From: Phytoseiulus persimilis
Taxonomy: Eukaryota; Arthropoda; Arachnida; Mesostigmata; Phytoseiidae
Assembly (NCBI GenBank): GCA_037576195.1
Contig: CM075102.1
Location: forward strand, 46,248,745-46,312,744
Reading direction: 5' to 3'
Length of the DNA: 64,000 nt
Position 1 is the first letter of the stretch, and the number at the start of each line of letters is the position of its first letter. A program made the position numbers and the translations under genes. Below are positions 4,151-12,000 of the stretch, piece after piece. Under the pieces are notes generated by a model. It was given only the letters and a program-made list of their open reading frames with translations. It had not been told where the DNA came from and searched no databases.

Positions 4151-6077
4151 ATGGAAAATCGGAATGGAGATGAAAGAAAGTCGATTCTCAGACGAACGAA
4201 TTCGATGGGAGACAGGAAAGAAGTGCGATTTGCCGACAAACTTGAGCATGCTTTCGAGTCTGGTGAGCGCAGAGGCAGAATGGTGAAGCGATCTCTCAGC
4301 CAACCATTGGTCAACATCAGACGTCAACCTGTTGACCACGTGCGGGATTTCATGAGAGGTTTCTTCCACAAGGAGAAGAAAGCGCGCGACAAGGCTGGCG
4401 AGTTCGGCGTCTATCAGAACAAGGTGTTTGACGAGGCGGATCCTCGGTTGGATCATTTTGAAACACAACGCAGTCACGGGGAAACTGGGGCCAGCGATGG
4501 GGCGCGCAGAAGTCTCCCGACTCAGAGCACCAGAGTTCTGCAAAAGGCGTTTTCTGTCGACCAGGATCGCTCAGGCAGAGCCGAAGCTCCCCCGATTCAA
4601 CGGGAGTCAGAACCAGAAGTGGCTCCTGTCAGGACTGAGGTCAGATCGAAGCACTCTGAAGACTTGCTCCCCAAGCAACACCGACAGTCGGAAACACCGG
4701 AGATTAAAGTTGAACTTGTCGAAACCCAATGCCCGTCGGTGAGATCGAAGGTCCCGAACCATTTTAAGAAAATCGACGGTCGGTCCAGCTCGGACCCGGG
4801 CCCGTCCACTCATCGGGTCGACATCCAACGCCCGTCGAAGTCGATTCGGGTAGCATCAAGTTGCACCGTGCTGAGCGGCTTGAGCAGTCAACAGCTCCAA
4901 GTATTCCCGAATCCGCAACTGCGGAGAAGGCCACCGAAGCTATCCCAGATGTACACCACGCTCTCGCCCGTCGCTTCGGTTTCTACGGAGGACGAGCCGA
5001 GCGATGACGTGAACTTGGGAGTATCGAGCGACAGCTCTGAAAAGAGAGAGAATCATGACTCGGCTCGTGAAACTAGGCAAATTTCACGTTGTTCCGACGT
5101 GGACGAGGCTGCAGTCGGAGGACAGCCGCGCGAATTCCCTCGATCGGAGATGACTGAGTTGAGGGCGGAGCAGAAAGCGACGTCGCCAACGGCCAGGGAT
5201 CCGGTGCCAGAATTCAAGAGCGTTTCGAAAATCGCGAACCTAAACGATGTTCTAGAAGATGTCCTGGAAAAGTTGAGACGATTGACAGAACCAAGATCAC
5301 CTGACGTCGAGCCACATATTCTCAAGTCTGAGCCCGATTCTGACTTCGAACTGTTCTCTGATGATGAGTTCGAGTTGTTGGAGGCTGAGGAAGCTCTGAT
5401 TGAAGAGCTCGAGCTACAGGTTCAGCGTGAGCTCCGCCCCGAACTGAAGCGCTGCACTCCAGAAGCCCAAGATACGGGAGCTCCGAAGGACTCACGAACG
5501 CAACGTCAGCAGTCCATGGAAGAAGCGACGCGCAGTGACTCTCTGATCCCGTTCCCGTCGAGTCCCTCGTCAGTTTCGGACTGGGACAGTGCCAGATGGG
5601 TAAGTTGGTCAAATGAATCATCTTGCCCGAAGTAAACGGCCCATGCTTGAAACGTGGTGGGTAGTAGGAAGAGTGAATAGCTATGGAATGGCCGGAAGGG
5701 ACTCTTACCACAATCGCTTTCATGGTTCATGCTCTCCTCGGGCATTTTCTAGGAGCACAACTTAGAGTCGGTGCCCTCTCTCCCGCGCCCAAACCTTCCC
5801 CCAAGAAATGAAAAAGTTGCTCGTTCTCTCCTCGACCGTGGAGAGAAATGTGTCAACGCTCCACATGAGCAACAAATGTCACAATTATCTTCAACCGTTG
5901 ACCCAGAAATTCCCGATCGGAGAATTGAAAGCTTTCCAGTTTCTCAGATTGACGGCAGCATGGAAGACGCCACATCATCTTCCGGAAACTGCCAGGATGA
6001 CGAAGCAGCGGATTCCGACATCGAAAGTTGCGATGATGCCTTTTCCAACGTCGAGGACGAGTTCATCGGTTACGAAG
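4151..6077 (+). CDS. Dys: Dystrophin long isoform N-terminus, two exons
   Basis: Exons 4151-5599 and 5753-6077 (donors GTAAGT and GTGAGT, acceptor TTTTCTAG) encode 591 residues with no recognised domain. The second donor leaves a single G. Joined to the exon at 10913, which opens with AT, this rebuilds GAT and reads into DEREDVQKK, the canonical dystrophin start of CH1. That match is why I assign these exons to dystrophin and not to a separate gene. Visible features: basic SILRR near the N-terminus, KEVRF at residues 23-27 (PP1 RVxF-type), a predicted helical acidic block around [22 protein letters not shown] sequence at 5340-5420, and an acidic tail [10 protein letters not shown]. An alternative is an independent gene whose last exon I cannot place; transcripts would decide. 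Confidence 0.65.
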
Positions 6078-9000: not shown

Positions 9001-12000
9001 GTGGATAACACGTGAGCGGGTCCGGTGATCACTCCCCCTTGGAGCAAGAGTCGGGAGCTTCTCGCATCTCCTCAGACGAGAAACCTTCGTTCGTCTCTAA
9101 TGAGGTGTCCGTACTAGAACACGCCCCGTCGACGAAGATCGAGGCAGTGGTAATGAAGTGGCAGACCACGATCCATTTCTAAGCGGAGAACGACAACCGT
9201 CGGTGCATTTTTCCGATCGAAGAAGATCAACATGGTGAGAGATGATGAGATAGTCAGTGATTGTGAAAGTGTGGACTCTTTTGAAACATGTCGTGACGCC
9301 GACCCAGCCGCCGAGCTCGACGATAGAGAAGAGTTTTGGACTCCAATAAAAGTTCTTCGGCTCCCCGTACCGCGTGTCCCATTCATCGAAGAGCTCAAGC
9401 GAGCTCAGCTCAAGCTGACCGAGAATTTCAATTTAACGAAGTGGGGTACCGATTTCCCCTCGAATGGAGCGAACCTTTTGCCGATTGTTGGGAACTCAAT
9501 CGAGCTGAAGAAGGCCGTCACGACGACGAGCTCGGTGACGAACGACGCAACCATTGAAAACGTGCGTCCGAACCTCAGAGGTGTGAAGTTCAAGCCCTTC
9601 GTGAAAATTTCCACGTGGAACGAAACGAGAAGACTGGGCTCTCCGAAAGCACCTCCAGGACCTAGTCTGAACCATGTCGAGCCTCGAAAATCAGTGTCCA
9701 GCGCCTCTGATTTAGAAGTCCTCAAATGGATCCCGGCTCTCAGAGCGCAGTGCTTGTCACGCGCGCGTCTAGGGTCCACAGAAGTTCTTGGTACGTTCAG
9801 GATTCTGTTCATTGAAAATTGATAGCTTGACGGAGTGCTCTCCCTGTGGGCAACGTTCTTCTAGCGATCTGTTTGCGAACAAATGCAACAGCCTCGAGGA
9901 GGAACCATGGAGTTGTCGAACAAATCTCGATCATTGATCGGAATGATGTCTCCTCCTCGCGGCTTTGACGTCGGTGCCGAAAGCCGGTACGGCGAGCGTA
10001 GTCGGACGGAAAAGGAGCGAATTATCAGATTTCGGACACTCAGGTGGCTGCATCAAAGAGCTAACCATGTGCGCGGCTGCCTCTCACCCAACATGGCGGA
10101 GCTCCGATCGGATCGGAGGAGAAGAAAACAACAACCAGTCGTGTGTGTTCGTGTTTTCGGATAAGTTTATCTGTGACTCAGATAAGTCTGATCGATCGCC
10201 GATCATGTGTTCGTTATCGCAACGGTTCCCTTCGATGAGCAGGTGAAGGCGATAAATCATGGATCCGACCGTGCAAGGTGAGCCCGATTCGGAAGCCATG
10301 TTTGACGTCACCGGAGTAAGTTGGCACCGAGTCCGCGCCCGACCGCCCATGACAGCTTGAAAAAACCGCCCGTTGCAGCGGGAACATGAACGGATCTCGG
10401 GTCGTCGGGGTGATTTTCCCGGGGAGAAACCCGCTCTCGCTCGCTGCCTTGAAGCCGGAGCTTCGCTATTCGAATATGGTTTCGGTGATTGCCGATCGTT
10501 TTGGCGTAGTGAGTGGTAAGTTTGCGACGCTAATGGTGTTCCCGGGGAGCTCCTCCTGGCGACGGACGCCATTCTCCCGATGAGAATCTTCCGAAGCTGA
10601 AGCTCTTCGCCGTGGTCCGGAAGTTCGCTCTCCGTCCTGAATATTGACCTGATCAGCCGGAACACACCTGTTGCATGCGTGATCGGCAGACTCTCCATCC
10701 CGAGTGCCGTTTGATTCGACGCCGGTGTCCGAACGATTCATTTCCAGATCTGTCTTCGGCACACTAGATTAGGTCTGAGACGATTGCGAGAACTCATTGT
10801 TTCCACTTTGGAAACTTTGTGCCCGAACCTTGTAGAAAGTTTGCTCTCAAGTAACAGTCTCATGTAGGAGTTGATCTCATCCAGAGCTAAGCGTTCTGAC
10901 GATTGTCCACAGATGAGCGGGAGGATGTTCAGAAGAAAGCCTTCGCCAAATGGATCAATCAGAGGCTCCTGCAAGGCGGACACGAACCCGTCAAAGATCT
11001 ATTCTTGGTAAGCAGCCCCTGTCTGCCACCCTTTATGGAGCCGGGGCATTGCGCTCTAACTCGAGGATCCCCTCTGGAACGGCGTCCGAATCGTTGAAGT
11101 GGACTCATCGATTTCCCTTCCAGGATTTGCGAGATGGCACGAAGCTCCTGCTGCTCCTTGAGATATTGTGCGGTCGCACCCTGCCGAGAGAAAAAGGACG
11201 ACTCCGAGTACATCACATGAACAACGTCACTCGAGCTCTCCAGGTCTTGGATTCGCAGAACGTCAAACTTGTGAACATTTCAACGAACGACATCGTGGAC
11301 GGCAACACAAAACTAACTTTGGGCTTGATCTGGAGCATTATCCTCCACTGGCAAGCCCAGGAAGTTTTGCGAGCCAATAGGGTGAGTCGTACCTAAGATC
11401 CAGTGTGACCGGCCCCATGATTCATGACCAGATCTCGAAATCACAGACTTCGATAACTGTCCATCAATCACCGGATATGTGGGTGTGTGGGAAGATGGAT
11501 AACTGGCGATGCCCGGTTGGGGCTGAGATATCCGCACATTAAACTTTTATTCATCTATCTACCGCCATATATGACTCGAGGGTGCGAAATGGCAACCGCC
11601 CGGACCTCCGGGCTCTGTCCAGGTCATCTCTGGAGTCGTCTCCTTTATGGATTGGCTCTGATCTCGGAACGAAAGTTCCGGAATCGATTATTCGGAGCTT
11701 TTCTGATTGAAGTGGAGGAGCCTACGAGAGCTTCCATTCCAGTCAACCGGAGCGCACACCTCGCTGGAGAAAACACTTCTTGCATGGTGTCAAGAAGTGT
11801 GTGCCAACTACTCGCAGTACGTCAGCGTTTCCAACTTCACTACGGCATGGCAAGACGGTTGGGCTTTCAACGCTGTTCTCCACTACCACAAGCCAGAAAT
11901 GTTCAACTTCGAGAATCTTGCGAATCTCGACGACGAGGAGAGGCTGGAGCACGCGTTCGAGGTGAGTCATCGGGGCTGCGTCATTTCCGGAGACAGAAAT

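Follow-up and report, generated by a model that had tools for sequence, protein, structure and literature searches.

A Probable Cluster of Alternative First Units at the 5′ End of the Dystrophin Gene of Phytoseiulus persimilis

Introduction

A 64,000-nucleotide stretch of the Phytoseiulus persimilis genome (assembly GCA_037576195.1, contig CM075102.1, positions 46,248,745 to 46,312,744 of the forward strand), called the window below, carries the 5′ part of a dystrophin gene, and the question that it raises is where the coding sequence of this gene begins. An earlier note, made from the letters of the window, had proposed that three alternative 5′ units, ending at donors 6077, 9790 and 10277, all join one acceptor at 10913 and rebuild the same Asp codon ahead of the first calponin homology (CH) domain. 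The window belongs to contig C2 of a genome of 181 Mb in 127 contigs.

In mammals, three full-length dystrophins are described that differ by 11, 3 and 7 first-exon residues, have promoters of their own and are common in the rest (PMC7372313, in excerpt). For Drosophila, excerpts of two papers give three large dystrophin isoforms, DLP1, DLP2 and DLP3 (PMC7904721, PMC2958114).

Here we rebuild the proposed junctions, compare them with chance and with the coding signal of the units, and weigh the result against other explanations. The arrangement that we favour, with moderate confidence and from the sequence, is that the dystrophin 5′ end is a cluster of alternative first units converging on acceptor 10913.

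Results and Discussion

The features concerned are the following. Splice-site scores are from donor and acceptor matrices, each trained on the 23 introns of our gene model (a Viterbi decoder of our own).

4091 to 5599, plus strand: unit 1 exon a, with ATG at 4151, 483 codons and a SILR/KEVRF pair near the start; acceptor 4091 scores 10.61, donor 5599 scores 7.45
5753 to 6077, plus strand: unit 1 exon b, 108 codons and one nucleotide, with the phase-1 donor AAG/GTGAGT (12.62)
9232 to 9790, plus strand: unit 2, from ATG (AACATGG) to a phase-1 donor (5.86), 186 codons and one nucleotide; possible acceptor of a 5′ untranslated region at 9076 (8.21)
10259 to 10277, plus strand: unit 3, a short first coding exon, MDPTVQ plus G; donor 11.17, A at −3 of the ATG
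10386 to 10515, plus strand: candidate unit 4, 43 codons from ATG 10386 or 13 from ATG 10476, plus G; phase-1 donor GTG/GTAAGT (8.62)
10913 to 11007, plus strand: common second dystrophin exon, beginning with AT and encoding (D)EREDVQKK, the start of CH1, as aligned to utrophin and dystrophin actin-binding domains

Joining 4151–5599 to 5753–6077 gives 591 codons and one nucleotide, while 9232–9790 gives 186 codons and 10259–10277 gives 6, again with one nucleotide each. In all three cases the remaining nucleotide is a phase-1 G, the exon at 10913 supplies AT, and the frame is open into that exon, just as the earlier note had stated. Its N-termini of 591, 186 and 6 residues are correct as codon counts, the figure of 591 being provisional because the strong acceptor at 4091 implies an exon further upstream. 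The three units are not the full set: two further donors agree in phase and base and read openly into 10913, namely 10515 of candidate unit 4, which was missing from the note, and 6566 (9.10; ATG at 6533, 11 codons). The exon at 10913 must be preceded by a coding phase-1 exon, because its frame is open only from 10900 and no ATG stands ahead of EREDVQKK. The alignment to human dystrophin begins at its residue 12 (EREDVQKK), in keeping with the 11 unique residues of Dp427m, and the phase-1 boundary directly before this motif holds, as does the proposed parallel with the vertebrate first exons. The letters of the human first exons, the Asp present in two of the human forms and the human phase at the corresponding intron are taken here as general background.

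That the gene is dystrophin is borne out by several comparisons. In the PDB, the five best matches of the CH1-CH2 exons after 10913 all come from utrophin and dystrophin, with E values of 2.1e-66 to 1.1e-57; beta-spectrin (5.3e-52) and plectin rank behind them. Pfam CH scores 118 bits on the actin-binding region. When three rod exons were scanned, Spectrin reached 84.9 bits in 16243–17169, and the other two gave Spectrin_SYNE1 alone, under its cut-off. EF-hand_2 (PF09068) is above its cut-off at C2:46321413 and 46321686, on the plus strand, 8.7 kb beyond the window; a third match above cut-off is on contig C3 and is presumably dystrobrevin. Judged by these matches, the gene is a full-length dystrophin that extends beyond the window. 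A second copy was not found in the genome, where the next best match of the CH1 exon is 55% identical. The body of the gene is listed as follows.

11124 to 64000, plus strand: dystrophin body (CH1-CH2 and a spectrin-type rod), continuing to EF-hand_2 near coordinate 72669; from the gene model, Pfam CH and Spectrin, and EF-hand_2

The body is approximate, as the final model omits at least one CH2 exon near 12071–12150 that was present in an earlier pass, and one of its 23 donors, TTG/GTCGCG, is doubtful. Inside the dystrophin span there is also a 649-aa stop-free frame at 48457–50403, within whose coordinates three model exons fall.

It is important to ask how often such donors arise by chance. 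The earlier note spoke of three independent matches of phase and base, which is an overstatement: the consensus splice donor itself has a G before GT, and what each match tells lies in its phase, for which the odds are one in three. Donors with a G, in phase 1 and with an open ATG frame were counted in 2800–10912, with the large introns of dystrophin as the null. Ten have a score of at least 5 (5.7 expected), eight of at least 5.8 (3.6 expected), six of at least 7 (1.0 expected) and four of at least 8.5, where the introns give 0 and 18 random loci 0.8. Among the ten, 4262, 4738 and 4778 are internal to exon a of unit 1, and that exon's own donor is 5599. Donors like 9790 with the right phase are thus expected 3.6 times, whereas 6077 and 10277 are far above background: at scores of at least 11.1, 65 kb of intron, with both strands counted, contain no donor, and 360 kb of random loci, real genes among them, contain six. 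In 348 control ATG frames of at least 80 codons, a phase-1 G donor lies within the last 45 nucleotides in 11 at a score of at least 5.8 and in none at 12.6 or more. The candidate ATGs at 4151, 9232, 10259 and 10386 all have an A at −3.

Unit 3 makes a convincing short first exon. Its donor would rank fourth among the 23 body donors, and the stricter-penalty Viterbi model picked 10259–10277 as the dystrophin start; the looser first pass entered 10913 from donor 10515 via tiny artefact exons. We consider it very likely that unit 3 is used in dystrophin mRNA.

For unit 2, such use seems probable. Between its end and 10913 there is no recognisable in-phase exon, nor any of the four poly(A) hexamers for which we scanned (AATAAA, ATTAAA, AGTAAA and TATAAA). 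Its 221-aa frame is unremarkable in length (44 of 300 shuffles). Acceptor 9392 (6.11) lies inside the unit, in phase 1 of its frame, and the frame joined from 6077 to 9392 and from 9790 to 10913 is open; the segment 9392–9790 (133 codons) could be a symmetric in-frame internal exon between unit 1 and dystrophin. Upstream of unit 2, at 8869–9008, there is a 46-codon open reading frame (ORF) with a hydrophobic stretch, whose composition is not coding-like and which has no Pfam match at E ≤ 1.

The case of unit 1 is evenly balanced with regard to use in dystrophin mRNA, because a CDK20-like gene intervenes and the gene model joined unit 1 to this kinase. The donor at 6077 equals the best of the 23 body donors, and unspliced, exon b would be closed by a TGA at 6104–6106. 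The stop-free frame of unit 1 spans 584 aa, compared with a maximum of 371 aa in 300 Markov shuffles. Acceptors with a score of at least 3 number 51 in 6120–10920, and 10913 alone takes the phase of unit 1 into a conserved protein from that protein's start; 7341, 7506 and 7950 take it part-way into the kinase, and 9392, 9659, 9716 and 9719 part-way into unit 2, still in frame to dystrophin. At the other end, acceptor 4091 is the strongest in 2600–5800 on the plus strand and stands 60 nucleotides before ATG 4151, and 4091–4150 is coding-like in frame. Unit 1 probably has a further exon upstream of 4091, which would probably lie in the interval adjoining a divergent minus-strand gene (1–2707, predicted start 2707) that we take to be ADP-dependent glucokinase. 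Also upstream of unit 1 is a 56-nucleotide direct repeat (3457–3512 and 3627–3682, 88% identical, 170 nucleotides apart); a genome search with a 281-nucleotide stretch containing both copies returned its own locus alone.

The coding signal of the units was assessed by several tests, among which an order-4 in-frame model gives the clearest separation. Its training set combined nine predicted genes with dystrophin and the kinase, and is in part our own prediction. When these 11 genes were held out in turn, their in-frame scores ranged from −0.03 to +1.15 bits per codon, and the two remaining frames of the same strand gave −0.36 to −0.74. Unit 1 exon a scores −0.085, against a length-matched stop-free null of −0.34 (standard deviation 0.048; z 5.35), and unit 2 scores −0.036 against −0.336 (standard deviation 0.079; z 3.82); in both cases none of 1000 null sequences reaches the value. 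Candidate unit 4, with z 1.6 and 52 of 1000 null sequences reaching it, has a composition that is only suggestively coding-like, and we regard its use in dystrophin mRNA as possible but doubtful. When a codon model was trained on the kinase and the rod of dystrophin, units 1 and 2 came out slightly below zero. A further test, to be trained on long ORFs from random loci, was dropped as only five training ORFs were retained.

Several results weigh against a cluster of first units. Within the order-4 model, unit 1 exon a and unit 2 are just under the lowest of the 11 held-out genes, and both are outscored by the top one (−0.030) among 1266 simulated non-coding ORFs. One of 101 intron ORFs of at least 100 codons (−0.060) is above unit 1 exon a, and none is above unit 2. 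A minus-strand frame outscores that of unit 2 over the second half of the unit, and the frame of exon b is ambiguous (−0.056 in frame and −0.065 in a neighbouring frame; starts 5753, 5754 and 5755 were scored). Synonymous codon use, for which the kinase has z 4.1, does not distinguish the units from intron (z 1.4 for unit 1 exon a and 0.1 for unit 2); the two thus look coding-like by one in-frame model and not by synonymous codon use. At the splice sites, the phase by itself agrees one time in three, donor 9790 exceeds only 2 of the 23 body donors and is at noise level alone, and acceptor 10913 is weak: its score of 3.29 is lower than all 23 body acceptors used for training the matrix, and 46 of the 51 acceptors mentioned above are stronger.

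The remaining adverse points concern the gene that lies between units 1 and 2.

7073 to 8077, plus strand: intronless CDK20-like kinase gene; Pfam Pkinase E 3.1e-64

The kinase is 49% identical over 304 aa to human CDK20. Unit 1 could be a separate gene, or share a transcript with this kinase, and agree by coincidence in phase with the dystrophin gene downstream of it; donor 6077 would then join a terminal or untranslated exon, for example at 6331, 6983, 7046, 8268 or 9076. A complete kinase gene does intervene, with AATAAA at 8134 downstream of its frame, and a unit 1 pre-mRNA leading to dystrophin would need read-through of the CDK20 poly(A) site. Many nearer acceptors beat 10913 (8268 with 8.08, 9076 with 8.21 and 6331 with 6.89), and from 9076 a 35-codon tail could stop before an AATAAA at 9345. 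The stricter gene model, moreover, chains 6077 through a small exon at 6331–6365 to the kinase at 7172, and not to dystrophin. However, this link looks like an artefact, because the first 33 residues of the kinase domain would be replaced, and none of the five acceptors named above leads into a recognisable protein from its start. The four scanned hexamers are absent from 6106–8133, which is weak evidence because, in the sequence covered, AATAAA is found within 1 kb after the stop in just 3 of 15 predicted control genes. Taking both sides together, we consider such a separate or kinase-linked identity of unit 1 rather unlikely.

We also considered, and rejected, a product in which unit 1 is fused in frame to the entire CDK20 reading frame, as the stretch between 6788 and 7073 has no in-phase acceptor into it with a score of at least 3. 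A strong donor at 6439, AAA/GTGAGT (11.0), lies between unit 1 and the kinase and is possibly the end of a 5′ untranslated exon of the latter.

Another option is that dystrophin starts from unit 3 alone or from units 3 and 4, like the short vertebrate exons, and that units 1 and 2 encode parts of other, lineage-specific genes. The gene model begins dystrophin at 10259 alone, donor 9790 is weak, and Pfam, to E ≤ 1, recognises neither unit 1 nor unit 2. When unit 1 exon a and unit 2 were searched against the genome, nothing besides their own loci matched with an E value below 0.2. This option is nevertheless unlikely, as both units end in the right phase and the interval from unit 2 to 10913 holds neither a recognisable in-phase exon nor a scanned hexamer. 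Finally, it is very improbable that the three donors owe their agreement to chance and selection by eye, with dystrophin beginning elsewhere, for instance at another upstream exon: the ten donors found against 5.7 expected would allow it, but 6077 and 10277 are far above background and the second exon requires a coding phase-1 first exon.

In the favoured cluster of first units, each unit would have its own promoter, and its donor would skip the units downstream and join the single acceptor 10913 in phase 1, so that all forms would be common from EREDVQKK onward. The long units would add N-terminal tails ahead of the actin-binding domain, that of unit 1 probably being largely disordered, and unit 1 might take in part of unit 2 (9392–9790) on the way.

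As to what such a tail might do, SILR (residue 11) and KEVRF (residue 23) of unit 1 resemble a SILK-type motif followed by an RVxF-type motif, as in docking sites for protein phosphatase 1 (PP1). A pair of these types within 40 aa occurs in 14 of 20000 shuffles of unit 1, the motif having been chosen after the sequence was seen. According to an excerpt of PMC3792071, SILK lies N-terminal to RVxF, which has basic residues before it and acidic ones after, and in LAP1B REVRF did the PP1 binding while SILK was not needed. The motif order and flanks of unit 1, as a candidate PP1 dock, fit PP1 docking proteins such as LAP1B. Dystrophin is not mentioned in the literature on PP1 docking by SILK and RVxF, among the matches listed. 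A single-sequence structure model of unit 1 exon a has a mean predicted local distance difference test score of 47.8, with low-confidence helices at residues 6–14 and 24–57, and by charge and hydropathy unit 1 as a whole falls on the disordered side; the corresponding prediction for unit 2 has low confidence. It is a speculative scenario, and quite unlikely in full, that one dystrophin isoform would carry a long, mostly disordered N-terminal tail that recruits PP1 to the actin-binding end, with a promoter some 7 kb ahead of the shared second exon and a transcript running through the nested CDK20 gene, beside three other starts.

Compared with the vertebrate forms Dp427m, Dp427c and Dp427p, the proposed arrangement is alike in having several first exons and a common part from EREDVQKK. 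Unit 3 with the split Asp amounts to 7 unique residues, the same as the number given for Dp427p in an excerpt of PMC7372313. The short unique N-termini of the mammalian forms are matched by unit 3 (6 residues), but not by units 1 and 2 (591 and 186), which would add at least 591 and 186 residues, respectively, and here a whole kinase gene sits between units. The likeness to Drosophila, another arthropod gene with three large isoforms, lies in the isoform count. A search for literature combining dystrophin, an N-terminal extension, calponin homology and invertebrates found none, which is weak evidence as most subscription papers were outside its scope.

Conclusion

In vertebrates, alternative first exons joining exon 2 of dystrophin are an established feature; first exons with a long coding sequence would be new. 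The small genome of this species makes direct testing of alternative dystrophin starts possible. If the arrangement is true, the choice of promoter in dystrophin would also alter what the actin-binding end carries, possibly including a phosphatase dock, and arthropods and vertebrates would seem to have in common that their first exons converge on exon 2 in phase 1.

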